Positions 14,422-41,260 of a stretch of DNA of 64,000 nucleotides are shown piece by piece; position 1 is the first letter of the stretch, and each line of letters starts with the position of its first letter. The notes below the pieces were generated by a model. It was not told the origin of the DNA, searched no databases, and saw only the letters and a program-made list of their open reading frames with translations. The stretch spans positions 124,001-188,000 of the forward strand of contig NZ_CP099398.1 of assembly GCF_024721175.1 (NCBI RefSeq), read 5' to 3'. A program made the translations under genes and the position numbers. Origin of the DNA: Rhizobium sp. Pop5. GTDB lineage: Bacteria; Pseudomonadota; Alphaproteobacteria; Rhizobiales; Rhizobiaceae.

Positions 14422-15463
14422 CCAATATAAACCTATCTATGAACACCAACTCGCACATGCCGGGACTAGTTTTCCAAACCTTCAAAGCTCGAGACCGGAT
14501 GGCGTGCGAGCGATTTTGATCGCGTACATGACCGATTCGGACCTTTGTGGAGGCCGGTTGAATCTCTCATTCCCTAGGCTTTCGTCATGGCGGATCATCA
14601 CCAGCACCGACATCCACGTTCTCCCGCTCGAGATGGCCTCCTAGTTTTTCAGCGCTGCAGTTGGGAAGCCTCTAATGATGCGATGACTGGCTTCCACAAG
14701 CCTCGAACAGATTGACAGATTGTCTGATATACGTTAATGCTATTCCTGATCAAAGGCAAGGCAGCATCAGGGAAATCTGCCACGGTTCTAGTGGAGTTCC
14801 CGCACGGCAAATCAATCTAAAGATGCCTCCCAAGGCGAGGGGTGACGGGCTGCTTTCGATCGCAGCCCGTCACGGGAAGGGTGGGAGTGCTATGAGTGGG
14901 AGAGAACCTACGCCAACCGACCTTGGAGGCCGTTGAGTCGACACGGAGAAAAATGATTGTGCTGTAGGATGGCCCCACGATTTCGCCACACGCTGGTCCT
15001 CTTAACCTGCGCATCAGCATACTTCGGTTATGACGTATAAGAGAGGCACGCTCCAGGCTCAACACTCGGAGACGCAAAGACGTCGACGAGTTCTTTTGGC
15101 CTACTAAGCGAGGCGGTCGCGGCAAATATCAATGCGTAAGCCGCGCCTCGTCGCATTGAGTTGACTTTGCGCTCTTCTTAGCGGGTACGGACTCCGGGCG
15201 TCTGATTGGGCAAAAGAAGAGCTTAAGGACGAAACCTGATGATGGTCAAACAGCTTGTGCTGCCATAGGCGTGCTGTTGTCTGTGCCGCGCGAACGCGAA
15301 AAGCGCGATCAAATCGGAACGTGGCGGCGAGAGAAGACTAACAGGAAAGACCACATCAAACTCAACCGGGTGTCGGAATACCGATGCTTACGGCATTGCG
15401 TGCATGAGGCCTCAAAATGACGCCGGTCTCGACATGTGTCCGCCGAAAATCGCAAAAAAGGAA
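14422..15463. other. Gene-free region with an orphan operator-promoter
   Basis: About 1 kb with no credible coding sequence on either strand; the longest open frames have compositions unlike neighbouring proteins and no ribosome-binding sites. It does contain, at 14712, one of the window's repeated TTGACA-operator promoter units pointing right. The region may be the scar of a deleted gene of the same regulon or encode a small RNA. Confidence 0.55.
14712..14740 (+). promoter_or_regulatory. Promoter with 17-bp operator, orphan copy
   Basis: TTGACA (14712-14717), then the operator copy AGATTGTCTGATATACG starting on the last A, then a weak -10 (TAATGC at 17-bp spacing, or TTAATG at 16). The left half-site AGATTGTC is perfect against the consensus; the right half is degraded. 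Points towards gene-free sequence, so either the target gene is lost or the transcript is non-coding. Confidence 0.65.
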
Positions 15464-15494
15464 TTGACAGATTGTCGGACAAAAATTTTACTAT
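15464..15494 (+). promoter_or_regulatory. Promoter with 17-bp operator upstream of SDR-like gene
   Basis: TTGACA (15464-15469) followed by the operator AGATTGTCGGACAAAAA, in which TTGTC-G-GACAA is a perfect inverted repeat. The -10 may be TTTACT (17-bp spacing) or TACTAT (19-bp). It lies about 125 bp upstream of the GTG at 15618. Confidence 0.75.
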
Positions 15495-15617
15495 ATCGCC
15501 CGCGCATTGCTTGTTCGCGGGAGACGCAGCGACGGACCGGGAGTTATAAGTGCTAAACTTGGCCAAAAATGCACAAATTGTCGACCTTCTTAATCTGCCG
15601 GAAGCGGCGACCGGCGC

Positions 15618-16367
15618 GTGATACAAGCGTCTCTGACTCACAAGGCGTGTCATACTCCATCGACCGAGGTACTGGTTGAACGTGACAGTGACGCCAACAT
15701 TTCTCCTGGGGAAAAAGTCTGTGTCTTGATAGGCGCGTCAAATCCTGTTGGTCTTTGTTTGGCGCGCTCATTTATAGAAAAAGGCTATCGGGTCGCCGTA
15801 GGCGACGCCAATCCCGCCGACTTCGCCTCCCTGGCTGAAGGCCAGGGAAACAATTTTTTACCGGTCAAAGTCAACCCGAACAGAGACGTTTACGTCAACT
15901 CAATGGCTGACCAGGTGTATTTGCGCTGGAGACGGGTCGACGTTCTGGTGAACATAGTTTTCCGCAGAAATGAAACAACCCAAACTGTAACGGGATCGCT
16001 ATCCAGCGCGAATCTGGGGCTTGATGCCGTATCCAATCTAATCAGAGTTACAGGTGCCTTTAGCTCTCGACTTCAGGGCGCGGAGCTTGCCGTAGTGGAC
16101 GTCGCATGGTTCGAAGAGACGACCTCGCTGGAAGCAGAAGCCGTCCTTCAAGCGGCGTTGCGCACTACTACCTCCGCAATTGCTAGGCAATATTTCGGTT
16201 CCGGGCTGAGGATAAATGCTGTACACGCCAGCGATGTGAACTCTACGTCTTCAAGCGAAAATGACGTGCTTCGAACAGTGATCCACGCCGTGCAATTCCT
16301 GGCGAATTCGGAACTGTCCGGAAAGCTGACAGGGAACGTGCTGGAGATCGATCCTCGGTGCAGATAG
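15618..16367 (+). CDS. Divergent short-chain dehydrogenase-like protein lacking the catalytic dyad
   Basis: 249 aa Rossmann-fold protein. The order of elements is that of an SDR: a nucleotide-binding loop VLIGASNPVGLCLARSFIEKGYRV (usual TGxxxGIG replaced by GASNPVG), VDVLVNIVFR where NNAG should be, and LRINAVHASD for the usual RVNAVAPG. The active-site YxxxK is absent, so classical dehydrogenase chemistry is unlikely. GTG 15618 is the assumed start; no strong ribosome-binding site is seen and no early ATG exists. Preceded by the operator-promoter at 15464. It may be a decaying enzyme or have become a ligand-binding protein. Confidence 0.6.
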   Translation: MIQASLTHKACHTPSTEVLVERDSDANISPGEKVCVLIGASNPVGLCLARSFIEKGYRVAVGDANPADFASLAEGQGNNFLPVKVNPNRDVYVNSMADQVYLRWRRVDVLVNIVFRRNETTQTVTGSLSSANLGLDAVSNLIRVTGAFSSRLQGAELAVVDVAWFEETTSLEAEAVLQAALRTTTSAIARQYFGSGLRINAVHASDVNSTSSSENDVLRTVIHAVQFLANSELSGKLTGNVLEIDPRCR

Positions 16368-16578
16368 ATCCACTCCCACGTTCTGATCCGGCAAATCTGC
16401 AGGTATTAACCTTCCGTTAAGTTTCTCGAAAGACGCAATGGGTAAGAGGTCAAATCCTAACAACACGTAAAAAAGTTTCGATTGTTTTAGTGAAACTCTT
16501 ATCCATGTTCGTTCAGGCTCAAACATTACTATTCCAAAAGCGAGGCCCCAGCACCGTTTGAGCCCTTTGGAGGTAAGT

Positions 16579-23745: not shown

Positions 23746-23774
23746 TTGACAGATTATCATACAATCTGCCAAAA
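23746..23774 (+). promoter_or_regulatory. Promoter with best-conserved 17-bp palindromic operator
   Basis: TTGACA (23746-23751) overlapping by one base the operator AGATTATCATACAATCT (23751-23767), in which AGATT-GT/AC-AATCT arms match in nearly every position. This copy defines the palindrome AGATTGTC-N-GACAATCT. The -10 is poor. Lies 40 bp before the first hydrolase gene. Confidence 0.8.
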
Positions 23775-23806
23775 ATGTCGCCAAGCACCTGATGGGAGGA
23801 AAATCA

Positions 23807-24703
23807 GTGTCTCTTAGTATGCATCACCTGGCCAAGCTTCCGTATTTTTATCCGTTCGAATTTGGCGATGGAAAAATCACGGTACTGTCCGACGGGCCGT
23901 TAGAGCTAGGAGATCCTCGCCTGAACTTCTTGGGGGTAGAGCCACGCACGGTCAGCCTGATGCTAGAGGACAATTTCCTGCCAACGAACAAAGTTGTACT
24001 CGAGCAAAACGTGCCGCTTGTTGAGATAAATGGAAGAACAATTCTATTTGATACCGGGATGGGGTCTTCCAAAGCTTTCGGGCCCACCACAGGTCGACTC
24101 CTAGCCAGCCTGAGAGAGGCAGGTCGAGATCCGACGGAGATCGATGCGGTGGTTCTGTCGCACGCCCATATCGATCATATCGGCGGTCTGTGCGATGGCA
24201 ATGGAAGGTTAAATTTCCCGAACGCCGACATCTTCATCAGTGAGCGAGACTTCACGGACTGGACGGACGGGTCGTCGATCGATTCTTCATTTCAATTTCA
24301 AATCGATAACGCTCGGCGAAACCTGCTTCCCCACAAGGATCGGACCTTCTTTTTCAAAGACGGCGAGGAGTTCTTGCCGGGCGTTCACGCGATTTCGGCC
24401 CCCGGCCACACGCTCGGTCATCATTGTTTTATGCTGCAGTCGGGAAACGATCGCCTCTGTTTTCTCGGCGACCTTACGCACCATCATATCCTGTTGATGG
24501 AGAGGCCGATGATGGAATTCCGATACGACACGGACCCGAAGCTGTCAGCTAGATCCCGCACGCGCGTGCTTGATATGCTGGCGACAGATCGCATTGCGGT
24601 AATGTCCTATCACTTCGCATGGCCAGGTGCCGGGCATGTGGTGCGAAACGGAGACGGATTCCGCTATATCCCCTCTCCAATGCAGTTGCTTGCACATCGA
24701 TAA
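23807..24703 (+). CDS. Metallo-beta-lactamase-fold hydrolase
   Basis: 298 aa zinc hydrolase with the binuclear metal motif SHAHIDHIGG, a second histidine region SAPGHTLGHH and the aspartate in FLGDLTHHH. GTG 23807 is preferred: GGGAGG precedes it by 7 nt, whereas the ATG at 23792 overlaps that site. First gene of a tight operon with a zinc alcohol dehydrogenase and a second, different MBL protein, under the operator at 23746. A lactone or ester substrate is plausible, but the fold covers many chemistries. Confidence 0.88.
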   Translation: MSLSMHHLAKLPYFYPFEFGDGKITVLSDGPLELGDPRLNFLGVEPRTVSLMLEDNFLPTNKVVLEQNVPLVEINGRTILFDTGMGSSKAFGPTTGRLLASLREAGRDPTEIDAVVLSHAHIDHIGGLCDGNGRLNFPNADIFISERDFTDWTDGSSIDSSFQFQIDNARRNLLPHKDRTFFFKDGEEFLPGVHAISAPGHTLGHHCFMLQSGNDRLCFLGDLTHHHILLMERPMMEFRYDTDPKLSARSRTRVLDMLATDRIAVMSYHFAWPGAGHVVRNGDGFRYIPSPMQLLAHR

Positions 24704-26674: not shown

Positions 26675-26689
26675 GACAATCGGGTTGTC
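26675..26689. promoter_or_regulatory. Inverted repeat upstream of gntR, candidate autoregulatory operator
   Basis: GACAA-TCGGG-TTGTC, 70 bp before the regulator gene. On the minus strand it reads GGACAACCCGATTGTCTGC, so it holds the GATTGTCTG core found in the other operators, in the opposite orientation. Likely lets the regulator control its own gene. Confidence 0.5.
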
Positions 26690-27480: not shown

Positions 27481-27509
27481 TTGACAGATTGTCTGAAAAT
27501 CTGCTTACC
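27481..27509 (+). promoter_or_regulatory. Promoter with 17-bp operator upstream of alpha/beta hydrolase
   Basis: TTGACA (27481-27486), operator AGATTGTCTGAAAATCT (27486-27502; outer AGATT/AATCT arms perfect), -10 CTTACC at 17-bp spacing. Confidence 0.8.
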
Positions 27510-31318: not shown

Positions 31319-31347
31319 AGAAGACATTTTAGCAGACAATCTGTCAA
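31319..31347 (-). promoter_or_regulatory. Leftward promoter with operator (SDR gene)
   Basis: On the minus strand TTGACA (31347-31342) and operator AGATTGTCTGCTAAAAT (31342-31326). The -10 is weak (TCTTCT at 17-bp spacing). Its -35 lies only 14 bp from that of the opposite promoter, so one bound repressor pair could control both directions. Confidence 0.75.
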
Positions 31348-31361
31348 TTGTGAAAATCCAG

Positions 31362-31390
31362 TTGACAGATTGTCTGCTGATCTGTTTATC
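31362..31390 (+). promoter_or_regulatory. Rightward promoter with operator (monooxygenase operon)
   Basis: TTGACA (31362-31367), operator AGATTGTCTGCTGATCT (31367-31383, outer AGAT/ATCT arms perfect), and -10 TTTATC (31385-31390) at exactly 17-bp spacing. The strongest-looking promoter of the set; drives the flavin reductase gene and probably all genes to 36594. Confidence 0.82.
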
Positions 31391-31424
31391 TAGGCTCGAT
31401 CGAATTTGGCCGTGGGAGGACAAT

Positions 31425-31934
31425 ATGGCCGATACCAGCACTGAGGCGCAGTTGGCTTTTAAGGCAGCTATGCGTCGGTTCACATCAACCATCTGCTTGA
31501 TCACGACCGAACTCAACGGGGTCCGTCATGGCATGGCCGCCACCGCGGTCCAGTCGGTTACCGCGGACCCACCAACTGTTCTTGTCTGCATCAACCAATC
31601 GGCTTCGGTGAATCAGCCTTTGAAGATCTCCGGGAAGTTCGCCGTGAACATGCTGCATCTTTCACATGCCGATCTTGTGCCGCTGTTCAGTGGGCAATTG
31701 AAGGGTGAAGAGCGCTTTCATTACGGCGAGTGGCTGTCTCTCGACGGCATGCCGGTCCTGTCCGATGCGCAGGCGGCGTTTGTCTGCAAGCTAAAAGATG
31801 TCGTTCACGTTGGAACGCATGATGTTGTGCTCGGAGAAGTGCTCGAAGCACGGTTCATCGAGTCAATCGCGCCGCTTCTCTACGAAAACGGTCAACTCGT
31901 CAGGTCGTCGTCCATCAGTGGATCGGCCGCATAG
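31425..31934 (+). CDS. Flavin reductase domain protein (monooxygenase partner)
   Basis: 169 aa single-domain flavin:NAD(P)H reductase of the HpaC/RutF family: FKAAMRRFTSTICLITTE at the start, then GMAATAVQSVTADPPTVLVCIN and KFAVNML. Such proteins supply reduced FMN or FAD to a separate oxygenase. ATG 31425 follows GGGAGGAC. First gene of the rightward operon, followed by a PcaC-like protein and a luciferase-like monooxygenase, its likely oxygenase partner. Confidence 0.9.
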   Translation: MADTSTEAQLAFKAAMRRFTSTICLITTELNGVRHGMAATAVQSVTADPPTVLVCINQSASVNQPLKISGKFAVNMLHLSHADLVPLFSGQLKGEERFHYGEWLSLDGMPVLSDAQAAFVCKLKDVVHVGTHDVVLGEVLEARFIESIAPLLYENGQLVRSSSISGSAA

Positions 31935-31997
31935 TAGGTGGCTTTAACCACCAATCACATCACTCATCGAAAGCCCAAGGGCGGCAAGGAGAAAAGC

Positions 31998-32414
31998 GTG
32001 AGCAATATGGCACCCGCAAGAGAAATTCATGGACGTGAAGTCACAGAGCGCTTTGAGCGCGGACTAAAGACCCGGCGCGAAGTCTTGGGGGGGGCCTATG
32101 TTGATGCGTCGGTCAGCAAAGCCACCGACTTCAATTGGCCGATGCAAACCCTCGTCACGGAATACTGCTGGGACGCGATTTGGAATCGGCCGGGCCTGGA
32201 GCGCAAGCAGCGCAGCATCCTCAATCTCGGGATGATTTCGGCCCTCAATCGTCCGCATGAGCTGAAACTGCATGTTCGCGGAGCAATCAACAACGGTCTT
32301 ACCAAAGAGGAAATTCGGGAGGTTTTCCTCCAGGTTTCGATTTACTGCGGTGTTCCTGCGGCCATCGACAGCTTCCGCGTGGCAGCGGAAGTTTTCGACG
32401 AGATGGGCATCTAG
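31998..32414 (+). CDS. Carboxymuconolactone decarboxylase (PcaC-like) family protein
   Basis: 138 aa, length and sequence close to protocatechuate-pathway PcaC: RFERGLKTRREVLGGAYVDAS, then EYCWDAIWNRPGLERK, LNLGMISALNR, ELKLHVRGAINNGLT and VSIYCGVPAAIDSF. GTG 31998 is chosen since AAGGAG lies 6 nt before it; the next ATG (32007) is too far from that site. PcaC removes CO2 from a muconolactone acid, but the wider family includes peroxidases. No other protocatechuate genes are present, so a different lactone or acid substrate is likely. Confidence 0.88.
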   Translation: MSNMAPAREIHGREVTERFERGLKTRREVLGGAYVDASVSKATDFNWPMQTLVTEYCWDAIWNRPGLERKQRSILNLGMISALNRPHELKLHVRGAINNGLTKEEIREVFLQVSIYCGVPAAIDSFRVAAEVFDEMGI

Positions 32415-32474
32415 TTATTCAACGCATTTGAGTGGGCTGAGCATCATCCGTTGCCAGCCCGAGGAGGGACTACA

Positions 32475-33596
32475 GTGACCGCACAAGACGATTTCCGCGC
32501 TGCCGGAAACCCAATGTTCAATGATAACAAGCTCAAGCTCGGCGTATTTGGCACGAATTGCTCGAATGCATGCGCGATTACGCTCGCTGAGACAACGTTC
32601 GAACCTACCTTCGACCACAACGTCGAGATTGCAAAGAAGCTTGAGGCAGCCGGTTGGGAATGCATGGTGCCGATTGCACGCTGGCGTGGTTTTGGCGGTC
32701 CTTCAAACTTCAATGGCGTGAACATGGATACGTTCACCTGGGCGGCCGCTCTCGCGGCGGTCACCACGAAGCTCCAGTTCTTCTCAACGACTCACATTCC
32801 GACGCTAAACCCGATTGTTGCAACCAAGATGGCGACAACAATCGATCACATCTCGAAGGGTCGATACGGCCTCAATCTCGTGACCGGCTGGTTCACTCCC
32901 GAAATGGAAATGTTCGGAGTTCCTATGATGGAGCACGACACCCGCTATGAATACGCCACTGAATGGATGGATATCGTCGAGACGCTCTGGAAACGCAATG
33001 GCGTTACCTTCGAAGGCGAGTTCCTCAAAGTCAAAGACGCCTTCAGTGAACCCAAACCCTACAACAAGGCGGGTCGCCCGCTCCTGATCTGCGCCGGCGC
33101 CTCGGGCAAGGGACTGCATTTCACCGCCAAGTTCTGCGACTTCAACTTCGGCTTCATGCAAGACATGGAATCCGGCGCTGCCTGGGTCAAAAAGGTGAAG
33201 GACCTGGCGCGTACTGAATATAACCGTGATCTTGGCACATTCACAGCTTGCCCCGTTATCGTTCGCGAAACGGAGAAGGAAGCAAAGGAATACTACGACT
33301 ACTACGTCAACCAGAAGGGTGACTGGGAGGCATGCGAGAACATCTGTGAAGTTCTGCAGGTGCAATCTCAAAACCATTCTGCCGAAATGTATCAAAAATT
33401 CAAGGAACGCTTCGTCGCTGGCTGGGGTGGATACCCGATCGTCGGCAATCCAGAACAAGTCGCCGACAAGCTCGTGGATCTCAGCAATACAGGCGTCAAC
33501 GGCGCCTTGCTGACAATGGTCGATTACAACGAGGAACTTCCCTTCTTTAACGACCGTGTCATGCCGCTGCTCAAGCAAGCCGGTCTGCGCAACTGA
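32475..33596 (+). CDS. Luciferase-like FMN-dependent monooxygenase (RutA/SfnG-like)
   Basis: 373 aa TIM-barrel monooxygenase of the bacterial-luciferase superfamily. Blocks shared with pyrimidine oxygenase RutA include RWRGFGG, TKMATTIDHISKGRYGLNLVTGW, the FMN-phosphate region ICAGASGKGLHFTAKFCDFNF and a C-terminal GALLTMVDYNEELPFFNDRV. GTG 32475 follows GAGGAGG by 8 nt. It would insert oxygen into its substrate using reduced FMN from the reductase at 31425. Similarity to RutA is in the cofactor and fold blocks; the rest of a rut operon (amidohydrolase, RutC, RutE, uracil permease) is absent, so the substrate is probably not uracil. Central catabolic enzyme of the island. Confidence 0.9.
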   Translation: MTAQDDFRAAGNPMFNDNKLKLGVFGTNCSNACAITLAETTFEPTFDHNVEIAKKLEAAGWECMVPIARWRGFGGPSNFNGVNMDTFTWAAALAAVTTKLQFFSTTHIPTLNPIVATKMATTIDHISKGRYGLNLVTGWFTPEMEMFGVPMMEHDTRYEYATEWMDIVETLWKRNGVTFEGEFLKVKDAFSEPKPYNKAGRPLLICAGASGKGLHFTAKFCDFNFGFMQDMESGAAWVKKVKDLARTEYNRDLGTFTACPVIVRETEKEAKEYYDYYVNQKGDWEACENICEVLQVQSQNHSAEMYQKFKERFVAGWGGYPIVGNPEQVADKLVDLSNTGVNGALLTMVDYNEELPFFNDRVMPLLKQAGLRN

Positions 33597-33604
33597 ACCA
33601 GTCC

Positions 33605-33653
33605 TCGGGACGGCGATTGCCGTCCCGACACGAACTCTGCCAGATTCTGGCAG
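33605..33653 (+). terminator. Two tandem hairpins before the binding-protein gene
   Basis: First: TCGGGACGGC-GATT-GCCGTCCCGA, a perfect 10-bp stem (33605-33628). Second: CTGCCAG-ATT-CTGGCAG (33637-33653), followed by GATTTTC. They lie in the 123-bp gap after the monooxygenase gene, inside what looks like one operon. Likely partial termination or mRNA-end protection, separating enzyme from binding-protein expression. Confidence 0.6.
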
Positions 33654-33719
33654 GATTTTCGCGGCTGGCGGCCAAAGGGGCCGGCGGTTGAGCGGAACCA
33701 CAAGGGGAGGAGGCCCTGA

Positions 33720-34889
33720 ATGCTGAAGAAAATCGTTGCAGCGCTTTTTACGCTGTCGAGCCTTTATCACATGAACGGCGTGGCGAAGGCTGACGGCCTC
33801 GATTCGTTGCCGCCGGACCAAAAGGCGCTTTACGAGAATATCGATCCCGCCATTCCGCTCGGGGGGACGGTGTACAAGGATTTTGTTCCAAAACGTCCAC
33901 CGCCGTGGAAAATTGGTTATGCATCCACATATGCCGGTAATACCTGGCGCGCGAACATCCTGGACGAATTCACCAACGTATTGCTTCCGAAATATAAGGA
34001 AGCAGGCCTAGTCTCCGATCTAATCGTCACGCAGTCTGACCTCAAAGACGCTGTCCAAATCCAGCAGATGCGGCAGATGGTTGACGACGGTGTTGATGCG
34101 ATCGTCATTTGCTGCTCGAACATTACCGCACTTAACAAGACCATAGAGTATGCTCATTCGAAAGGCGTGCCAGTCTTCTCAGTCTCGGGCTATGTCACAT
34201 CACCCTACGCAATCAATGCCACAGAGAATAACACCGACGGTGGCTACAAGGCTGCTGAATGGCTTGCCAAGGAAATCGGTGAAAAAGGCAACGTCCTGAT
34301 GGTATCGGGCATCCCCGGTTTCGCATCATCGGACAGCTTCGACATCGGCGCGAAGAACGCGTTCGATAAATTCCCCGGTATCAAAATTGTAGGCACGATA
34401 GCTGGCAAATGGACCGACCAGGTCGCCCAGGTTGAGGTTCAGAAGTTTCTTGCCACCAATCTTGCTGAGGTTAATGGCATTCTCGTTCAGTCCGCTTCAG
34501 AAAACGGTGTCGTGAACGCAGTACAGCAATCCGGCCGCGACATGATGCCTATCGTGCTCGGGGGTGAGGCTTCGGCAGCCTGCTACTGGCGTAAGAACCC
34601 TGATTTCATAAGCAAGAGCTTCCATTTCTGGCCGCCGCGGTCTGATGCCCGCCTTGTGTGGGACGTCATGATGCGAACGCTCGAAGGCCAGGGACCAAAG
34701 ATCCAGTCGATTCTTCGTCCTGCGCTTCCTTACACCATTGATGACGTGAAGGAAGTGCTGAAGGAAGATTGCGATCCCAATTCCACGGATTGGATCGAGC
34801 CGAAGAACAACGGCTGGTGGCCTGCAGACGTCGCTGCAAACTACTTCGAACGTCCTGAAGATCCGTTAGCTTGGCGGCCGAAGAAGTAA
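33720..34889 (+). CDS. Ribose-type periplasmic binding protein
   Basis: 389 aa exported solute receptor. Signal peptide about 1-25 (MLKKIVAALFTLSSLYHMNG, cut after AKA), then the RbsB-like fold (WKIGYASTYAGNTWRANI, DDGVDAIVICCSNITALNKT, KWTDQVAQVEVQKFLATN, SKSFHFWPPRSDAR). ATG 33720 follows GGGGAGGAGG. Very close to the binding proteins at 1 and 19277, so all three may bind the same or related ligands. No transporter genes adjoin it; it may serve the importer at 794-4349. Its TAA stop overlaps the next start codon (TAATG). Confidence 0.92.
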   Translation: MLKKIVAALFTLSSLYHMNGVAKADGLDSLPPDQKALYENIDPAIPLGGTVYKDFVPKRPPPWKIGYASTYAGNTWRANILDEFTNVLLPKYKEAGLVSDLIVTQSDLKDAVQIQQMRQMVDDGVDAIVICCSNITALNKTIEYAHSKGVPVFSVSGYVTSPYAINATENNTDGGYKAAEWLAKEIGEKGNVLMVSGIPGFASSDSFDIGAKNAFDKFPGIKIVGTIAGKWTDQVAQVEVQKFLATNLAEVNGILVQSASENGVVNAVQQSGRDMMPIVLGGEASAACYWRKNPDFISKSFHFWPPRSDARLVWDVMMRTLEGQGPKIQSILRPALPYTIDDVKEVLKEDCDPNSTDWIEPKNNGWWPADVAANYFERPEDPLAWRPKK

Positions 34890-36184
34890 TGAATGTTCTC
34901 CGGAAGGAGACCTCCCAGCCTCCCGCGTCGGTTTCTATAATCGGCGCGGGAGGTATCTGCGATTTGATTGGAAATAGTGTGCTGGACTTTCACAGAATTC
35001 AACGTTTGCCGCCTTATGTTTTCGAACAGGTCAACCGTTTGAAAGCAAGCGCGCGAGCGGGCGGCGCCGATATCATTGATCTCGGCATGGGAAACCCTGA
35101 CCTTCCCACTCCTCAGTCGATCGTCGACAAGCTGTGCGAGGTCGTGCAGGATCCGCGCACCCACCGCTATTCCTCCTCCAAGGGCATTCCGGGGCTGCGC
35201 CGTGCCCAGGCCGCCTATTATGCCCGCCGATTCGGCGTCAAGCTCAACCCGGATACCCAGGTGGTCGCCACCTTGGGCTCCAAGGAAGGCTTCGCCAACA
35301 TGGCGCAGGCGATCACCGCGCCCGGCGACGTGATCCTCTGCCCGAACCCGACCTATCCGATCCACGCCTTCGGTTTCCTGATGGCGGGCGGCGTGATCCG
35401 CTCGATGTCGGTTGAGCCGGATGAGAGCTTTTTCCCGCCGCTGGAGCGGGCGGTCCGACATTCGATCCCGAAGCCGTTGGCGCTGATCCTCAACTATCCG
35501 TCGAACCCGACGGCCCTCGTCGCGACGCTCGATTTCTATAAGGACGTCGTCGCCTTCGCCAAGAAGCATGACATCATCGTGCTTTCCGACCTTGCCTATT
35601 CCGAGATCTACTTCGACGGCGCTCCGCCGCCATCGGTTCTCGAAGTGCCTGGTGCAATGGATGTGACCGTCGAATTCACCTCGATGTCGAAGACCTTTTC
35701 CATGCCCGGCTGGCGCATGGGCTTTGCCGTCGGCAACGAGCGGCTGATCGCGGCGCTCACCCGCGTCAAGTCCTATCTCGACTACGGCGCCTTCACGCCG
35801 ATCCAGGTGGCCGCGACCCATGCGCTGAACGGCGACGGTTCCGACATTGCGGAGGTTCGCAACGTCTACAAGCGTCGCCGCGACGTCATGGTCGAAAGCT
35901 TCGGCAAGGCCGGCTTCGACGTGCCGCCGCCGGCTGCCACCATGTTCGCCTGGGCGAAGATCCCGGAAAAGTTCCGTCATCTCGGTTCGCTTGAATTTTC
36001 CAAGCTGCTGGTCGAGAAGGCCGACGTCGCCGTTGCACCGGGTATCGGCTTCGGCGAAATGGGCGACGACTACGTCCGTCTGGCGCTCGTCGAGAACGAA
36101 CACCGCATCCGCCAGGCTGCGCGCAACATCAAACGCTGGCTTAGCGGCGACGAGAAATTTGAAATCAACGTAATGAATCAGTGA
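34889..36184 (+). CDS. PLP aminotransferase, AlaC-like (glutamate-pyruvate type)
   Basis: Class I/II aminotransferase. Substrate and PLP blocks: IIDLGMGNPDLPTP, SSSKGIPGLRRA, LNYPSNPTAL, LSDLAYSEIYFDG, the lysine in SMSKTFSMPGWRMGF. The core from about residue 31 (DFHRIQRLPPYVFEQVNRLK) matches the normal start of rhizobial AlaC-type enzymes; the first 30 residues (to GNSVL) are extra and may be non-native. ATG 34889 overlaps the preceding stop; GTG 34976-34978 region is an alternative native start. The gene is more GC-rich and more regular in codon use than its neighbours, as if recently copied from the chromosomal core gene. Probably transfers an amino group to or from a catabolic keto acid. 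Confidence 0.9.
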   Translation: MNVLRKETSQPPASVSIIGAGGICDLIGNSVLDFHRIQRLPPYVFEQVNRLKASARAGGADIIDLGMGNPDLPTPQSIVDKLCEVVQDPRTHRYSSSKGIPGLRRAQAAYYARRFGVKLNPDTQVVATLGSKEGFANMAQAITAPGDVILCPNPTYPIHAFGFLMAGGVIRSMSVEPDESFFPPLERAVRHSIPKPLALILNYPSNPTALVATLDFYKDVVAFAKKHDIIVLSDLAYSEIYFDGAPPPSVLEVPGAMDVTVEFTSMSKTFSMPGWRMGFAVGNERLIAALTRVKSYLDYGAFTPIQVAATHALNGDGSDIAEVRNVYKRRRDVMVESFGKAGFDVPPPAATMFAWAKIPEKFRHLGSLEFSKLLVEKADVAVAPGIGFGEMGDDYVRLALVENEHRIRQAARNIKRWLSGDEKFEINVMNQ

Positions 36185-36195
36185 AAGGATACCCG

Positions 36196-36594
36196 ATGCC
36201 AATCTTCGGATCATGCCAATGCAAAGCGGTTACGTACCAGGTTCAGGAAATTGATGGACCCATGTGGAATTGCTTCTGTCAAACATGCCGGAAGTCACAC
36301 GCCGCTGATCACAATACCGCTGCGAAGGTGAAAAGCGAGCACTTCAAGATCCTTACAGGCCAAGATACGCTTCATAGCTTCGAATCGACGCCTGGAAAGC
36401 TGCGGTGGTTTTGTTCGGTATGTGGCTCGCACGTTTATGCGGAGCGGCCGGCCAGCCCGGAGCTCAAAGTCGTTAGAGCCGGCACGTTCGATACCGATCC
36501 TGGAAGTGTGCCGATGTCAAACGTATGGGTATCGCATGCGAAACCTTGGCTCGCCCATGATCCATCGAAGGCAAGCTCACCAGAGTTCCCGTAA
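36196..36594 (+). CDS. GFA/CENP-V domain zinc protein
   Basis: 132 aa. Pattern of zinc ligands GSCQCKAVTY, NCFCQTCRKSH and WFCSVCGSHVYAE is diagnostic of the glutathione-dependent formaldehyde-activating (GFA) superfamily. ATG 36196 follows AAAGGA; a GTG overlapping the aminotransferase stop is upstream in frame. Members include Gfa and many uncharacterised proteins; a thiol-adduct or formaldehyde role would fit an oxidative demethylation or ring-cleavage pathway, but this is not shown. Last gene of the rightward operon. Confidence 0.88.
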   Translation: MPIFGSCQCKAVTYQVQEIDGPMWNCFCQTCRKSHAADHNTAAKVKSEHFKILTGQDTLHSFESTPGKLRWFCSVCGSHVYAERPASPELKVVRAGTFDTDPGSVPMSNVWVSHAKPWLAHDPSKASSPEFP

Positions 36595-36952
36595 GTGACC
36601 GGGATACTACCTGTCGTAACTGAGGTGGAGCCACGGCGACCGTATATCAAGCGGCAACGCCTCATTCCGTGTCCAGGAGGTTCTAACGCAAACGTGCTGG
36701 GTCGGTAAAAGCGGCAGGGATTGCAGACAGTAGGTGCGCTTGCACGGCGAGCCCACCCATTGAGAGAATAAAGTCGTACGAGACAGAAGACTTCTGCGAA
36801 GCAATCCAGCCTTCGAGGTTGGGAAATTACGGGTTGTGAGGGCTCAGGACACCGCAGGACTATTTTTGCCCCCACGGGTCCTCAACGACCTCCATTGCGG
36901 TGAGTGAAAATTGTAAGATTGTCTTATGCGAGAATGTTGGGAGTCCTGTGAC
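36595..36952. other. Intergenic with weak operator copy
   Basis: No gene. Near its right end TTGTAA (36911) and AGATTGTCTTATGCGAG (36916-36932) give a half-conserved copy of the regulon operator, left arm AGATTGTC perfect and right arm lost. This is the only candidate promoter for the FMN reductase-ribBA pair. Confidence 0.5.
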
Positions 36953-37471
36953 ATGAAAGTTGTTGTAATAACGGGGAATTTATCGCGCCCCTCGAAAACC
37001 CGGGCCGTAGCAGACTTCATGGTGGATCGGGTGCGCGCGTCCGGCAACGAAGCAAGCTGCTGGGACCTTGTCGACCTTCATCCGCACCTTGGGGCAACAG
37101 TGTTGCCCTCCAGCGCCGCTGAGATTGTTAAAGCGGCACTCAACGATATTTTGGCTAGTGACGTGCTAGTTGTTGGTAGTCCGGTCTACAAAGCATCTTA
37201 CACTGGGTTGCTGAAGCATTTATTCGACCTTGTCGACATGAAAGCGCTTAAGGGCCGCTATGTGATCCCTTTTGCAACCGGTAAAGCATCGAGTCACAAG
37301 CCGCTCGTCGAAGCCTCGATGGAAGCCTTATTCGACTTTTTCGAAGCGCAAATACATAGCCGTTTCATTTTCGCTCTCGATGAAGATTTTCAGAACGATG
37401 CTCTTTCTGAGAACCTGCGCGCGCTTGTCGACAGAGAGCTCGATGCCGCGCGTCGCGCCGTCAGCCCATAA
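36953..37471 (+). CDS. NAD(P)H-dependent FMN reductase, SsuE/MsuE type
   Basis: 172 aa flavodoxin-fold reductase: VITGNLSRPSKTRAVADF at the phosphate loop, then VVGSPVYKASYTGLLKHLFDLVD, the flavin-contact block typical of SsuE. It reduces free FMN with NAD(P)H for a two-component monooxygenase. ATG 36953 chosen; an in-frame ATG 27 nt earlier lies within the half-operator region. A second flavin reductase type in the same island (the other is HpaC/RutF-like), followed 16 nt later by ribBA. Confidence 0.88.
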   Translation: MKVVVITGNLSRPSKTRAVADFMVDRVRASGNEASCWDLVDLHPHLGATVLPSSAAEIVKAALNDILASDVLVVGSPVYKASYTGLLKHLFDLVDMKALKGRYVIPFATGKASSHKPLVEASMEALFDFFEAQIHSRFIFALDEDFQNDALSENLRALVDRELDAARRAVSP

Positions 37472-37487
37472 TAAGGAGGAGGATTCC

Positions 37488-38768
37488 ATGTCTTTTTCGA
37501 GCATAGATGAGGCGATCGAGGCGATCGAAGCGGGCGAGATGGTTATCGTGGTCGACGACGAAAACCGGGAGAATGAAGGCGACCTAGTCGTTGCTGCCGA
37601 AAAAATAACAGCTGAGCACATCGCTTTCATGATGAAATATGCGAGAGGCCTTATCTGCGTGCCACTTCCAGCCGAACGTCTCGACAAACTCGAGATCCCC
37701 CTGATGGTCACACGTAATTCGGACTCACTGCAGACGGCATTTACCGTTTCCGTCGATTGCAAACACGGCACAACGACAGGGATTTCAGCCGAAGATCGAG
37801 CAGCAACCGTCAAGTCGCTCATCGATCCGCAGACGCGGCCGGAAGACCTATCGCGACCGGGTCACATTTTTCCTTTGCGTGCAAATCGTCTCGGTGTCCT
37901 GGGCCGTCCTGGCCACACCGAAGCTGCCGTGGATCTTGCACGACTTGCCGGCCTGGCGCCGGCTGGCGTAATCTGCGAGATCGCCAATGACGACGGAACC
38001 ATGTCTCGACTGCCAGATCTCGAGAAGTTCGCAATCGAACATGGCCTGCACATAGTAACGATCGACGCTTTGATTGAGTACTGCAGGAGTCGTGATACGA
38101 GGGTAAAGCGTTACGCGCAGTCCTTTATGCCAACGCGGTTTGGGGATTTCAAGGCAATTGCTTATCGCGATAGTTTGACGGGAACTGAACACTTAGCTTT
38201 GACACTTGGCGAGTTGTGCGAGAAGGAAGACGTTCTGGTACGGGTGCATTCTGAATGTCTGACAGGTGAGGCGTTCCGGTCCATGCGATGCGACTGCGGT
38301 CAACAGCTCGAAATGGCTCTTCGGGCGGTCCAGTTAGCGGGCGCTGGTTGCGTGATCTACATGCGTGGGCAAGAGGGGCGTGGCATTGGCTTAGGAAACA
38401 AAATTGCGGCTTACAGCCTGCAGGATCATGGTCGTGATACTCTTGAGGCAAATCGGGAACTCGGCTTCGCATCTGATTCCCGCGAATATAACGCAGCGGC
38501 GGATATCATCCGCGACCTCGGTATCGGCAGCGTTCGGCTTCTGACCAACAATCCTACAAAAATAGAGGCGCTGCGAACGTCAGGCGTCATCGTGTCGTCT
38601 CGCCAGAGTCTGATCGCCGCATCTAGCGCGTCCAACATCACTTATTTTAAGACAAAGCGCGATCGGTTTGGCCACCTGTTGGACCAGGACACGTCAGCTG
38701 AACACGTCGGCCGGAGCAACGTCTTTTCAGTGTTTGGCGCGCAGGTGTTCTCTGGACCCCTTGGATAA
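37488..38768 (+). CDS. ribBA: Bifunctional DHBP synthase / GTP cyclohydrolase II
   Basis: 426 aa. N-terminal 3,4-dihydroxy-2-butanone-4-phosphate synthase (DDENRENEGDLVVAAE metal and acid loop; RPGHIFPLRA) and C-terminal GTP cyclohydrolase II (HSECLTGEAFRSMRCDCGQQL zinc cysteines; RGQEGRGIGL; NNPTK). It makes both precursors of the riboflavin ring. In the cyclohydrolase half the residues before the end differ from usual (ASSASNITYFKTKRDRFGH), the family norm. ATG 37488 follows AAGGAGGAGG. Placement behind an FMN reductase in an oxygenase island suggests dedicated flavin supply; a chromosomal copy is expected elsewhere. Confidence 0.93.
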   Translation: MSFSSIDEAIEAIEAGEMVIVVDDENRENEGDLVVAAEKITAEHIAFMMKYARGLICVPLPAERLDKLEIPLMVTRNSDSLQTAFTVSVDCKHGTTTGISAEDRAATVKSLIDPQTRPEDLSRPGHIFPLRANRLGVLGRPGHTEAAVDLARLAGLAPAGVICEIANDDGTMSRLPDLEKFAIEHGLHIVTIDALIEYCRSRDTRVKRYAQSFMPTRFGDFKAIAYRDSLTGTEHLALTLGELCEKEDVLVRVHSECLTGEAFRSMRCDCGQQLEMALRAVQLAGAGCVIYMRGQEGRGIGLGNKIAAYSLQDHGRDTLEANRELGFASDSREYNAAADIIRDLGIGSVRLLTNNPTKIEALRTSGVIVSSRQSLIAASSASNITYFKTKRDRFGHLLDQDTSAEHVGRSNVFSVFGAQVFSGPLG

Positions 38769-38790
38769 CGGAGCCGCCCTCGCCACTTAC

Positions 38791-39004: not shown

Positions 39005-40111
39005 CTAATGCTTCATGCGAAGGATCGGCTTAATGACTTTGCCGCTCTCGGAATCAGCCATCGCCTCGTTGATCTGGTCGAGGTCATAGAACTGAACCAG
39101 TTTGTCGAACGGGAAAAGTCCCTGCTGCCAATACTCGATCAACTGCGGGACGAACTCGGACGGAACGCTTTGTCCTTCGACAACGCCGATCAATGTGCGG
39201 CCGAAAAGGAAGTTCCCGATATCGATCGTGCCTTCAGTGCCGAGAGCGGACGAGCCAACGAGACCGCATGTTCCCGGCGTACCAAGGCAGTCGACTGCCT
39301 GACGGAAAACTCGCGGCGAACTCGTGCATTCCAAGCTGAAATCAACGCCTGCGGGGACGATCTTCCTGATCGCGGCAACGCTGTCCAATTTGCGGGCATT
39401 TATCGTGTGCGTCGCCCCGAGTTCGCGCGAAAGTTCCAGCCGTTCATCGTTCAAGTCGATCACGATGATGGTCGCGCATCCGGCGATTTTCGCGGCCATC
39501 GTAGCCGCCATGCCAACCGCACCAGCACCGAACACTGCTATTGACGAGCCGGGCTTCGGCTTGAGGCAATTCAGTACCGCGCCAGCACCGGTCTGAAGCC
39601 CGCACCCGAGCGGTCCGATCAACTCGAGTGGAACATCCTTTGCAACCTTCACGGCGTTTCGTTCGCTGGCGATGGCGTAGGTTGCAAATGACGACTGCTC
39701 GAAGAAGCAGCCACTAATCTGTTTCCCGTGAGAATCATGGATCGGGCAGGTGCCATCCGGACGAGTGCCGCGGAAATTGCGACCGAAGAAGTCCTCGCAG
39801 TAGAAAGGTGTACCGGAAAGGCACTTTTCGCACTTGCCGCAATAGGCGTAGCTCAAAGCAACGTGATCACCGGGCACAAGATCTTTAACTGCGCTCCCGA
39901 CGGCCTCGACGACGCCAGAGCCTTCGTGTCCCAACACAACAGGTTGAGGTACGTCATATCCCTGGTCCCTGACCACCAGGTCGGTATGACATACCCCCGA
40001 TGCGACGATGCGGACCAAAATCTCGTCTGCACGAGGTTCCTCAATCCCTATGCACTCCAAGATCAAGGGCTTCGCCTTTTCGCGCGAGACCGCCGCATAT
40101 GCCTGCTTCAT
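39005..40111 (-). CDS. Zinc alcohol dehydrogenase, aryl-alcohol (XylB/benzyl alcohol) type
   Basis: 368 aa MDR enzyme: GVCHTDL and GHEGSG catalytic-zinc sites, structural zinc loop CGKCEKCLSGTPFYC, NAD loop FGAGAVGMAATMAAKIAG, and the family end DQINEAMADSESGKVIKPILRM. This set is typical of aryl- and allylic-alcohol dehydrogenases. ATG 40111 follows GGAGGAAC; the longer frame runs into the promoter. Read leftwards, alone, from the operator-promoter at 40150-40178. Paralogous to the enzyme at 46051. It suggests that an aromatic, furan or terpene-like alcohol occurs in the pathway (inference). Confidence 0.92.
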   Translation of the reverse strand: MKQAYAAVSREKAKPLILECIGIEEPRADEILVRIVASGVCHTDLVVRDQGYDVPQPVVLGHEGSGVVEAVGSAVKDLVPGDHVALSYAYCGKCEKCLSGTPFYCEDFFGRNFRGTRPDGTCPIHDSHGKQISGCFFEQSSFATYAIASERNAVKVAKDVPLELIGPLGCGLQTGAGAVLNCLKPKPGSSIAVFGAGAVGMAATMAAKIAGCATIIVIDLNDERLELSRELGATHTINARKLDSVAAIRKIVPAGVDFSLECTSSPRVFRQAVDCLGTPGTCGLVGSSALGTEGTIDIGNFLFGRTLIGVVEGQSVPSEFVPQLIEYWQQGLFPFDKLVQFYDLDQINEAMADSESGKVIKPILRMKH

Positions 40112-40149
40112 GTAACTGTTCCTCCAAGGCTCACAACGCAATTCGCGCG

Positions 40150-40178
40150 AACGTACTCATCGTCAGACAATCAGTCAA
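40150..40178 (-). promoter_or_regulatory. Leftward promoter with operator (aryl-alcohol dehydrogenase)
   Basis: Minus strand: TTGACT (40178-40173), operator TGATTGTCTGACGATGA (40173-40157; GATTGTC-T-GAC-GAT nearly perfect), -10 TACGTT (40155-40150) at 17-bp spacing. Confidence 0.8.
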
Positions 40179-40475
40179 TAATTACTCTATTAAATTAGAT
40201 CAGTTCAACCGGAGCAGGGCTGCATTTTTGCAAAGTCACGAGTGAACGCTGATTTGAAGTGATCAAAGGGTTCCGATGCATGTTCGAAAGGGAGCATGCG
40301 TCTTGTCCCGCTTTGGGCTGAAAGATCGGCAGACGAAAATTTAGTAGCAACGTGTGAGGCGAGCCGGATGGCGTCGCTTGCCGACGTCGAGCCGGTTCTG
40401 AAGGCTATCGACAGCTTCGAGACACCGGTATTGCCAAGTTCAACCGACTACAAACGATGCTACTGCCAGCCAGGC
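40179..40475. other. Intergenic, no gene recognised
   Basis: Between the -35 of the dehydrogenase promoter and the 3' end of the phosphoglycerate mutase paralogue. A short rightward open frame exists but overlaps the mutase gene antisense and has no ribosome-binding site. Confidence 0.45.
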
Positions 40476-41105
40476 TTAACAGACAGTACCAACCAGGACG
40501 TTAGTCTTCTCGATGATCGAGAGGTCCGACGCAATCCGGTATACAGTTGGCGCGGCGGTCGGTGACTCAATAGCGAGCGTATCCTGGATCGTGAGGCGTT
40601 CGATGCCCTGCTTTAGTGACCTGATCGTATTCCCGTGGGCCACCACAAGAACCGATTTCCCTCTCAACAAGGGGGGGAACACTTCGCTTATCAAAAAGGG
40701 CAGAACCCTCGCGCTTATGTCCCGTATGCTTTCTCCCCCAGGTGGTGGAGTGCTGTACGAGCGGCGCCAAACCTGGACAACATCCTGGCCCCACCGCTCA
40801 CGTGCCACGTTCTTGTTGATGCCGGTGAGCTGTCCGTAGTCGCGTTCGTTCAACTCGGTTCTCCTGATTGGCTCCAGCAGATCGCCGTTGGTTTCGTTCA
40901 AAATCGCTCTGCAAGTGTCGACTGTGCGCAAGAGGGCAGAGCTAAACGCAATATCGAACGAGATGCCGAGGTTCGCGAGCAGTGAGCCGGCTCGCCTGCT
41001 CTCAGACCAGCCCTCCTGTGTGAGCGGCACGTCGCTCGTACCCGTGAACTCCCCGCGCGCGTTCCCTTCGCTTTGGCCATGCCGGACAATCACCAGAGTG
41101 GACAT
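40476..41105 (-). CDS. 2,3-bisphosphoglycerate-dependent phosphoglycerate mutase paralogue
   Basis: 209 aa histidine phosphatase-superfamily enzyme: LVIVRHGQSEGN with the phospho-acceptor histidine, FTGTSDVPLT, LNERDYGQLTGINK, WRRSYSTPPPGGES and the second histidine in VVAHGNTIRS. These match GpmA, length included, so it is a true GpmA paralogue rather than a generic phosphatase. Its own operator-promoter lies at 41139-41167. In a catabolic regulon it may link a C3 end product to central metabolism or act on another phospho-sugar acid. Confidence 0.88.
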   Translation of the reverse strand: MSTLVIVRHGQSEGNARGEFTGTSDVPLTQEGWSESRRAGSLLANLGISFDIAFSSALLRTVDTCRAILNETNGDLLEPIRRTELNERDYGQLTGINKNVARERWGQDVVQVWRRSYSTPPPGGESIRDISARVLPFLISEVFPPLLRGKSVLVVAHGNTIRSLKQGIERLTIQDTLAIESPTAAPTVYRIASDLSIIEKTNVLVGTVC

Positions 41106-41138
41106 TCATAACCCTCCCATCGATTTAGCGAACACGAA

Positions 41139-41167
41139 TATTGTCGCACTATCGGACAATCCGTCAA
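41139..41167 (-). promoter_or_regulatory. Leftward promoter with operator (mutase gene)
   Basis: Minus strand: TTGACG (41167-41162), operator GGATTGTCCGATAGTGC (41162-41146), -10 ACAATA (41144-41139) at 17-bp spacing. Divergent to the next promoter, 65 bp away. Confidence 0.75.
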
Positions 41168-41231
41168 GTGCGACTATGTGCAAGTGAAAACAAAACGATG
41201 TCGAAAAAACAAACGTCGAAGTTTATATTTA

Positions 41232-41260
41232 TTGACAGATTGTCTGATAGCTCATACCAA
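41232..41260 (+). promoter_or_regulatory. Rightward promoter with operator (second importer operon)
   Basis: TTGACA (41232-41237), operator AGATTGTCTGATAGCTC (41237-41253), -10 TACCAA (41255-41260) at 17-bp spacing. About 100 bp upstream of the binding-protein gene; probably drives all genes to 48807. Confidence 0.8.

Follow-up and report, generated by a model that had tools for sequence, protein, structure and literature searches.

A short unit containing TTGACA recurs in front of genes for enzymes and transporters in the 64,000-nucleotide stretch of Rhizobium DNA analysed here (the window), which raises the question of what these units are and which protein reads them. We consider it likely, from sequence comparison, that they are operators shared by two FadR-type GntR/FCD repressors, which would govern about 34 genes for the uptake and breakdown of a bean-root compound.

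Clustering of the repeated unit in one island

The unit had been predicted at nine promoter positions, and TTGACNGATTGTC is indeed present at all nine with at most one mismatch (Table 1), eight copies being exact and the one at 23746 carrying a single mismatch. Shuffled sequences held 0.38 matches on average and 3 at most, and none of 100 shuffles reached nine. Across the 6.74-Mb genome we found 11 exact copies, ten of which fall within C1:120476-165244, that is, in 45 kb (0.7% of the genome) of a single 455-kb replicon, with eight of them inside the window; a binomial calculation gave P of about 2e-21 for this clustering. With up to one mismatch, the genome held 30 matches versus 3 for a reversed-pattern control. 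The scan of replicon and genome and the clustering statistics together ruled out chance or a motif scattered at random genome-wide. Upstream of the window, the operator set continues with C1:120476+, 120682+ and 121704-. By our own count, about ten operons stand behind the operators and hold about 32 genes, which with two gntR genes makes about 34; the earlier estimate of about 20 genes was too low.

The island replicon is locally identical to R. etli plasmid p42d, in which an IS66-type transposase gene lies 167 bp downstream of the counterpart of the operator at 14712. We rejected as regulon members the copies outside the island, namely five one-mismatch ATGACAGATTGTCTGA copies, each on a separate contig; the one inspected among the five, at C1:78099, lies inside an IS30-like transposase gene, as judged from its translation. 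Rfam gave no match at the gathering score between window positions 10000 and 48000.

Table 1. Operators, regulator genes and predicted targets (window positions unless marked C1).
Feature	Position	Strand	Evidence or remark
Matches to TTGACNGATTGTC	14712+, 15464+, 23746+, 27481+, 31347-, 31362+, 40178-, 41167-, 41232+		
Module B before the window: gntR-B and three further sites	C1:119774-121704		
Module-B operon, 3' part: SBP, ABC ATPase, two permeases, SSADH	11..5860	+	
Operator, orphan without obvious gene behind	14712..14738	+	motif match, shuffles
Operator before SDR-like gene	15464..15490	+	motif match, shuffles
SDR-fold oxidoreductase, probable target	15618..16367	+	
Operator before MBL-ADH-MBL operon	23746..23772	+	motif, gene-anchored alignment
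MBL-fold hydrolase (lactonase-like), probable target	23792..24703	+	
Zn-dependent alcohol dehydrogenase, probable target	24716..25843	+	
MBL-fold lactonase-like protein, probable target	25843..26637	+	
Operator-like element GACAATCGGGTTGTC	26675..26689	+	about 80 bp ahead of gntR-A; relatives have counterparts upstream of gntR
gntR-A, GntR/FCD regulator	26758..27447	+	Pfam PF00392 and PF07729, structure model
Operator before alpha/beta hydrolase	27481..27507	+	motif, gene-anchored alignment
Alpha/beta hydrolase, probable target	27577..28806	+	
SDR family oxidoreductase, probable target	30523..31290	-	
Operator for SDR gene (divergent)	31321..31347	-	motif, gene-anchored alignment
Operator for flavin reductase-LLM operon (divergent)	31362..31388	+	motif, gene-anchored alignment
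Putative operon: flavin reductase, CMD, LLM monooxygenase, SBP, aminotransferase, GFA, FMN reductase, RibBA	31425..38768	+	within it, LLM monooxygenase 32475-33596 and sugar-type SBP 33720-34889
Decayed half operator TTGTAAGATTGTCTTA before FMN reductase	36911..36926 (36916)	+	3/16 mismatches
Alcohol dehydrogenase, probable target	39005..40111	-	
Operator TTGACTGATTGTCTGA for alcohol dehydrogenase	40152..40178	-	motif, gene-anchored alignment
Phosphoglycerate-mutase-like histidine phosphatase, probable target	40476..41105	-	
Operator TTGACGGATTGTCCGA for phosphatase gene	41141..41167	-	motif match
Operator before teuB	41232..41258	+	motif, gene-anchored alignment
teuB-teuA-teuC1-teuC2, bean-exudate uptake ABC transporter	41361..45992	+	TeuB identity, gene order
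Alcohol dehydrogenase, ABM-type monooxygenase, NAD(P)/FAD oxidoreductase, downstream of teu	46051..48807	+	

Operator architecture and promoter boxes

The repeated unit is half of a quasi-palindrome of up to 27 bp; TTGACA therefore forms an arm of the operator and may double as a -35 hexamer. The 17-bp palindrome first described, AGATTGTC-N-GACAATCT, held in its left half, which is constant, but the whole was within three mismatches at only four of the nine sites. For the core, -10 and flank analyses, we reduced 75 non-redundant sites to 63 by removing nine with two half-site mismatches, a near-duplicate (L047), a transposase copy (L004) and a distant chance match (L055:7995). Against TNGTNNNACNA, the GT-N3-AC operator consensus, the core was exact in five of the 63 sites, with one mismatch in 30, two in 27 and three in one. 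A second symmetry axis 4 bp leftward (CAGA-TTG-TCTG) fits too, though on the whole not as well and in part owing to the selected half, and there are thus two candidate dimer axes. Selection of the 63 sites on the left half biases the left/right asymmetry and the inner pairs of the second axis, and the flat flanks around the sites arose partly by construction, sites with similar flanks having been removed. The stronger half was promoter-distal in 24 of 26 non-tied sites, with five ties, in a hand count (sign test computed) over seven annotated loci that left aside five sites without clear target.

TTGACA is the consensus -35 hexamer. The proposal that the operator fills the -35/-10 spacer is plausible, with the reservations that the -10 is weak and that TTGACA belongs to the operator's own symmetry. 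A -10-like hexamer 17 bp past the -35 in most units was not borne out, as only two of the nine window sites had a match of at least 4/6 at spacers of 16-18. Over the 63 non-redundant sites, the best -10 match was modestly raised (3.05 vs 1.89-2.29 at control positions), and 17 sites reached at least 4/6 as compared with 0-6 in the control positions. A sigma-70 scan of 26600-42000 gave six promoters versus 6.5 expected by chance. The predicted promoter at 41167- takes the operator's own TTGAC as its -35, and the one at 41201+ stops just short of the 41232 operator. Those at 31354-, 26653+ and 26685+, the latter two before gntR-A, overlap operator elements but have their -35 elsewhere, and TTGACA therefore need not be the -35 for some genes.

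Two GntR/FCD paralogues with the same recognition helix

GntR-A, encoded at 26758, had been taken as the one repressor and the sole intact non-AraC regulator in the area. This is doubtful, since a second intact FCD paralogue, GntR-B, is encoded at C1:119774-120454, 3.5 kb before the window, and is 73% identical to GntR-A. Among 30 FCD matches in the genome, these two alone lie on this replicon. Both match PF00392, the N-terminal GntR winged helix-turn-helix (71.4 bits for GntR-A and 73.4 for GntR-B, cut-off 27), and PF07729, the FCD domain (94.6 and 92.2 bits, cut-off 24.3). Residues 48-66, which cover the recognition helix, are 100% identical between them, the DNA-binding domain 85% and the FCD domain 70%. 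The GntR-A model has helices at 11-28, 40-47 and 51-63 and a two-strand wing in its N-terminal part, at moderate confidence (pLDDT block means 50-75), followed by six C-terminal FCD helices (overall mean pLDDT 78.5). The element that both proteins are predicted to occupy is TTGACAGATTGTCTGAYAATCTG.

In an alignment with 7xp0, the Asp/Asn-His-His-His metal ligands of the FCD pocket are largely missing here, with Lys138, Tyr142 and Ile186 at three of the four places and His208 kept; the places were taken from the available text of PMC7797058 and general FCD motifs rather than from the site of 7xp0 itself. K138, Y142 and H208 are invariant across 18 homologues. The backbone of a tree of 31 GntR proteins was unresolved, and the A/B orthology therefore rests on gene context.

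That only one paralogue acts on the common operator, or each at its own module, the other having lost or shifted its binding, is possible but on the unlikely side. Modules A and B do have separate gntR genes, and some plasmids carry a single gntR copy; yet residues 48-66 are the same, the operators of the two modules have a common consensus, and both copies (two or more) are present in 25 of 25 GntR-positive Rhizobium genomes.

Co-occurrence and conservation link the operator to GntR

The GntR/FCD regulon of the original prediction is well supported by comparative evidence. In 120 genomes of the genus, TTGACNGATTGTCNGA was found in 25/25 GntR-positive and 3/95 GntR-negative genomes (one site each); among 363 genomes, the site was found in 26/26 with this GntR versus 10/337 without it (single sites in the 10). 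These counts, compared by Fisher tests, derive from protein searches that scored the best first-look candidates per genome only. Because the island passes on and transfers as one block, the genomes do not count as independent, and co-occurrence by itself does not distinguish GntR from the other genes of the island.

Gene-anchored alignments point to the same element. In all eight enzyme/transporter promoter groups, of which SDR and flavin reductase share one intergenic region, every top-scoring 16-bp window fell inside the operator, with 14-16 invariant columns versus 3-11 in the best outside window, even though minimum pairwise identity went down to 44-54% in six of the groups. Several rows are near-identical, and the CMD start in L057 was shifted 27 bp by hand. 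In the gntR promoters, TCAGACAATC was kept in 9/9 regions upstream of gntR-B and CAGACAATC in 6/7 upstream of gntR-A. The weaker copies described earlier do exist: that at 26675 is conserved upstream of gntR in relatives and probably serves autoregulation of gntR-A, and that at 36916 looks decayed. Beside gntR homologues 57-69% identical, operator-like sites gave three (L050), six (L051) and two (L063) matches versus 0-0.2 in shuffles, overlapping readings of one site being counted apart. In L049 the site lies 1.6 kb from gntR, and in L048 a second gntR, 41% identical, has the clearest site. On plasmids of Shinella and A. tumefaciens, GntR modules with a single copy carry the same operator.

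The site could instead be one at which GntR activates, or belong to another regulator, such as the island AraC, with GntR merely co-travelling. The island genes move together, AraC genes occur in several islands and repression is itself a prediction, but we regard this reading as quite improbable. AraC half-sites are unlike the long symmetric form of this operator, and in this strain a frameshift interrupts the AraC gene at 13388-14421. The core is similar to the FadR-subfamily consensus given in the available text of PMC4494728. The site adjoins gntR in the distant loci L050, L051 and L063, which have a partly common gene set, and two single-copy modules have no annotated AraC gene in the stretch, a third having one about 7 kb off. 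That the repeats are ends or relics of mobile elements or ordinary strong -35 sequences is extremely unlikely despite the transposases in the island and the consensus -35 in TTGACA, as the alignments, which were built without regard to the motif, pick out the element from unconserved flanks and plain -35 elements would not have GATTGTCTGA in common.

The teu operon and the association with bean

The operator at 41232 precedes teuBAC1C2. TeuB is identical to the annotated TeuB of CIAT 652 at 360 of 361 aligned residues, and the teu gene order also matches; TeuB is 92% identical in CIAT 899, on the plasmid stated to carry teu (PMC3557214, available text). The accessible parts of PMC3557214 and PMC4125696 describe teu as bean-exudate-induced and needed for nodulation competitiveness, the former stating induction of teuBAC1C2 by Phaseolus root exudate for R. 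tropici. In the R. phaseoli context of PMC8581550, likewise in part, an increase is stated for ABC transporter genes that had been described as induced by bean exudate in R. tropici. The system had been called apparently undescribed; this stood for its regulation, since a mostly listing-level literature search that included the string CAGATTGTCTG found no report of a teu regulator, operator or inducer, but not for its targets, one of which is the published teuBAC1C2.

Among plasmid records with two gntR places, to which the count of host labels is confined, 43/49 were labelled Phaseolus and 6/49 had no host, across Rhizobium and Sinorhizobium; in six such records inspected, both genes lay in the viewed stretch in four and one gene in two.

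Proposed mechanism and relation to known systems

The mechanism that we infer, in its binding, repression, shared use of the operator by both proteins, operon extents and inducer, would run as follows. A catabolic regulon dispersed over the symbiosis plasmid of a bean rhizobium would have the repeats as its operators. GntR-A and GntR-B, having the same recognition helix, would bind one common element, a TTGTC-T-GAYAA core extended to the quasi-palindrome by further TGTC/GACA half-sites, on one side or on both. Its stronger half would usually lie promoter-distal, a place in which TTGACA can also serve as the -35 hexamer, and the bound dimer would thereby block RNA polymerase. A bean-root compound or breakdown product would enter via the sugar-type ABC transporters, TeuBAC1C2 and that of module B, and the imported compound or product would bind the FCD pocket, upon which the repressors would leave the DNA. 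Their release would switch on the gntR genes and about 32 others, whose products would serve uptake, flavin-dependent monooxygenation (LLM enzyme, flavin and FMN reductases, RibBA), the hydrolysis of lactones and dehydrogenation.

In a bolder variant, which we think unlikely, the shared operator, intrinsically asymmetric (TTGTC-T-GATAA, one arm strong and the other weak), would be read jointly, by a heterodimer or by two dimers on overlapping axes, and the regulon would open only with two different bean signals, as an AND gate for recognition of Phaseolus as host; such signals could be, for instance, the compound taken up and one of its breakdown products. An obligate heterodimer as the sole mode was rejected, judged on the plasmid sequences: there is just one gntR place on four plasmid records, and the three inspected carry the same operator.

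Two repressors sharing one operator would have relatives among known systems. FadR-subfamily operators, by the rule in the accessible part of PMC4494728, combine a palindromic TKGT/ACMA core with extra half-sites. The present system resembles them in its winged-helix and FCD protein, in a core that approximates TKGT/ACMA with GT-N3-AC spacing in the left half, and in extra half-sites 7-12 nt from the centre; unlike theirs, its right half is usually GAT rather than GAC, its extra half-site is near-invariant on one side (on which the sites were selected) and its direction is mostly fixed relative to the gene. In C. glutamicum, GntR1 and GntR2 are two FCD repressors with one operator over a dispersed sugar-acid regulon (PMC2230225, in part). 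Our paralogous FCD proteins, predicted repressors, would share this arrangement, but whereas one copy there is absent from related strains, at least two copies are found in 25/25 GntR-positive Rhizobium genomes here. The teuBAC1C2 operon is that of R. tropici (Rosenblueth 1998, via the available texts of PMC3557214 and PMC4125696); unlike in those accounts, it here belongs to a set of about ten operons that the element precedes. Atu1419 of Agrobacterium fabrum, as far as PMC7797058 is available, is likewise an FCD regulator from Rhizobiaceae, with plant-compound catabolism (predicted in our case) and palindromes overlapping promoter boxes; unlike our system, it has a 10-bp ATGTATACAT site, and its zinc-binding Asn/His pocket is largely missing here.

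Induction of the teu genes by common-bean exudate has been cited since 1998, and two candidate repressors and an operator now make their regulation testable. The candidate repressors would provide a means to fish the active compound from bean exudate, and the operator would define which other genes handle the bean compound. Since plasmids with two gntR places are mostly labelled Phaseolus across Rhizobium and Sinorhizobium, the whole appears to be a transferable catabolic module specific to bean, of relevance to the competitiveness of inoculants.

Distribution of the operator

All nine promoters of the original prediction carry TTGACNGATTGTC with at most one mismatch, whereas shuffled sequence averages 0.38 such matches. 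The window spans C1:124001-188000. A scan of the whole genome (6.74 Mb, five contigs) found 11 exact copies and confirmed the expected clustering, as 10 of the 11 are confined to positions 120476-165244 of contig NZ_CP099398.1 (C1; 454,824 bp; binomial P ~2e-21). Beyond the window, there are two exact copies and a one-mismatch copy, 3' of a second gntR gene, gntR-B, inside its operon. The observation holds: its extent and conservation exceed the earlier account, although the -10 boxes and the palindromy within the window fall short of it.

A 2,107-bp segment surrounding gntR-A shows 100% identity both to the R. etli CFN 42 plasmid p42d and to many R. phaseoli plasmids. The sequence ATGACAGATTGTCTGA occurs within an IS30-like transposase gene on C1 and once on each of the four other contigs. 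One operator has no recognisable gene downstream, its target being perhaps lost. Chemoreceptor and GGDEF/EAL genes are among the island genes, and no operator match was found directly 5' of them in the five stretches between 10601 and 55596.

Features of the island and related loci (window positions unless prefixed; C1 and L-numbers, contig and compared records; targets, probable targets)
Feature	Position	Basis or remark
Operator copies	14712+, 15464+, 23746+, 27481+, 31347-, 31362+, 40178-, 41167-, 41232+	
One-mismatch operator	C1:121704-	
gntR-A	26758..27447 +	
gntR-B	C1:119774-120454	
Operator without recognisable downstream gene	14712-15463	
ATGACAGATTGTCTGA copy	C1:78099	
AraC-family gene	13388-14421 (-)	frameshifted
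Module-B transporter SBP gene	11-595; L002:13171-14595	apparently frameshifted near 3' end
GFA to FMN reductase interval	36595-36952	decayed operator
RibBA and FMN reductase	37488-38768	downstream of LLM monooxygenase
Chemoreceptor and GGDEF/EAL genes	10601-12610, 16558-19092, 20830-23466, 50362-52622, 52765-55596	
Third GntR clade	L017:18275, L018:18280, L038:18441	same operators
GH3 or beta-glucosidase gene	L059:46127-48571, L055:11500-13944, L069:47105-49549	flanks module A
Module B targets: HIBADH; CMD, hypothetical, hydrolase, SBP, ATPase, two permeases, SSADH		annotation
Target: SDR (one)		annotation
Target operon: MBL-ADH-MBL		annotation, inferred extent
Target: hydrolase		annotation
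Target: second SDR		annotation
Target operon: eight-gene flavin reductase-LLM-RibBA run		annotation, inferred extent
Target: ADH		annotation
Target: phosphatase		annotation
Target operon: teuB-A-C1-C2 and three further genes		annotation, inferred extent

Link between the operator and GntR

Among 120 Rhizobium genomes, this GntR was present (E ≤1e-60) in 25, all of which contain the 16-base pattern, as opposed to 3 of the 95 others with one copy each. Only one of 243 genomes from other genera has it (69% identical), with the site directly after the gene; seven GntR-negative genomes carry one site copy each. Altogether, the site is found in 26 of 26 genomes with GntR and in 10 of 337 without, counts in which the genomes are not independent because near-identical islands move on plasmids. 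Better evidence for a direct link than this co-occurrence comes from three distant loci (L050, L051 and L063; GntR 57-69% identical), where operator-like sites adjoin gntR and the gene set is common only in part (HIBADH-like dehydrogenase, CMD, hydrolase or MBL genes). The three loci have 3, 6 and 2 matches, respectively, with overlapping readings counted separately, versus shuffle means of 0-0.2. Locus L049 has a single site, separated from gntR by 1.6 kb (0.1 on average in shuffles), and the clearest site in L048 is 5' of a second gntR, 41% identical. The Pop5 genome has 30 FCD matches, of which only two are on the C1 replicon, both in the island.

Conservation and architecture of the operator

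Upstream regions chosen by gene, not by motif, were aligned in eight promoter groups, with four or five sequences per group drawn from p42d, CIAT 899, S. fredii GR64, A. salinitolerans, A. tumefaciens and Shinella. All top-scoring 16-bp windows were within the operator in all eight groups, with 14-16 invariant columns compared with 3-11 in the best window outside. In six groups the minimum pairwise identity was 44-54%; it reached 67-69% for SDR and flavin reductase, two groups that represent one common intergenic region; the effective number of rows is smaller because several are near-identical (up to 99-100%). The gntR upstream alignments were otherwise too loose for the window test, yet the core recurs as TCAGACAATC in 9/9 sequences for gntR-B and as CAGACAATC in 6/7 for gntR-A, which points to autoregulation. 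The weak copy predicted at 26675 proved to be part of the latter core.

Operator copies in relatives are often more complete than in the window, the fullest approaching a 27-bp quasi-palindrome, TTGACAGATTGTCTGAYAATCTGTCAA, so that TTGACA, originally read as a -35 element, is also the outer operator arm. FadR-subfamily operators are reported to follow the rule TKGT/ACMA, GT-N3-AC, with extra half-sites 7-12 nt from the centre (PMC4494728); the core TTGTCTGACAA fits this rule and the outer arms match the extra half-sites. The right half has GAT instead of GAC in most sites. Compared with TNGTNNNACNA, 5 of 63 non-redundant sites are exact, 30 have one mismatch, 27 two and 1 three. Position 17 is C in all nine sites with A at position 11, which is the same asymmetric core read on the opposite strand. 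The best-scoring symmetry axes, both candidates for the dimer axis, are at positions 14 and 10. The former scores higher; selecting sites on the left half favours axis 10. The stronger half was promoter-distal in 24 of 26 non-tied sites of annotated loci (5 ties; hand count, sign test), both exceptions being the module-B CMD promoter.

The site centre is in most cases ~40-140 bp upstream of the annotated start codon. A strict scan of 26600-42000 returned 6 promoters versus 6.5 expected by chance. One, 41167-, takes the TTGAC of the operator as its -35; a -10 match of at least 4/6 was found in just 2/9 window sites. Three others (31354-, 26653+ and 26685+) overlap operator elements using another -35, and one stops just 5' of the 41232 operator. 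Over the 63 sites (spacers 16-18), the mean -10 match was 3.05 against 1.89-2.29, with 17 sites at ≥4/6 against 0-6, a rise for which the right operator arm itself may be partly responsible.

Two GntR paralogues

The original interpretation names the right kind of system; the picture changes in that there are probably two repressors instead of one, the operator is longer, the gene set is larger and teu is connected. GntR-A and GntR-B are 73% identical overall (DNA-binding domain 85%, FCD 70%) and 100% identical over residues 48-66. The GntR-A model (mean pLDDT 78.5, with lower values over the DNA-binding domain) places the third helix of that domain at residues 51-63, a two-strand wing after it, and six helices in the FCD part. 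Lys138, Tyr142 and Ile186 stand at three of the four metal-binding positions of other FCD proteins, which predicts a pocket free of metal.

Each of the 25 GntR-positive Rhizobium genomes carries two copies, except for three that carry four. In 53 plasmid records the match covers at least 80% of gntR-B; two gntR places occur in 49 of them and one in 4. Three single-copy modules, single within the module itself, have the same operator, so one protein would probably suffice. In C. glutamicum, a functionally redundant FCD pair acts on one shared operator (PMC2230225). A third related GntR clade (support 100/100, 100/99 within) was found in three loci.

Probable target genes and the teu connection

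The proposed regulon of about 20 genes was too small: annotation places 32 genes behind sites, plus the two gntR genes, by our own count with inferred operon extents. In an NCBIfam scan of 20 proteins, the aminotransferase, RibBA and one SDR exceeded equivalog cut-offs and the phosphatase a subfamily cut-off. The frameshifted AraC-family gene is listed as one 1035-bp gene in p42d and CIAT 652, and a full-length SBP gene is listed in p42d. The interval between GFA and FMN reductase is without the module-A ABC ATPase and permeases that occur in CIAT 899, GR64 and A. salinitolerans.

Operator 41232 precedes teuB, the first gene of the bean-exudate uptake transporter operon; TeuB is identical to the annotated CIAT 652 TeuB at 360/361 residues and 92% identical in CIAT 899. 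The teu genes are reported to be induced by exudates of bean and Macroptilium atropurpureum, to be necessary for competitiveness, and to occur on sv. phaseoli pSyms while being absent from the sv. mimosae Mim1 genome (PMC3557214, PMC4125696); they are also said to reside on the smallest CFN 299 plasmid (PMC4971678). No report on a teu regulator, this region or this operator was found in a search that most subscription papers lay outside. Of the 49 two-place plasmid records, 43 are labelled Phaseolus and 6 have no host; none of the four single-place records is labelled Phaseolus.

RibBA and FMN reductase downstream of the LLM monooxygenase constitute a flavin supply, encoded on the plasmid itself, for an enzyme that depends on flavin. 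The GH3 or beta-glucosidase gene flanking module A in three islands hints at a glycosylated substrate. Together, the enzyme families (LLM monooxygenase, flavin/FMN reductases, RibBA, lactonase-like MBL, hydrolases and dehydrogenases) suggest that a cyclic or lactone-forming plant compound is oxidised.
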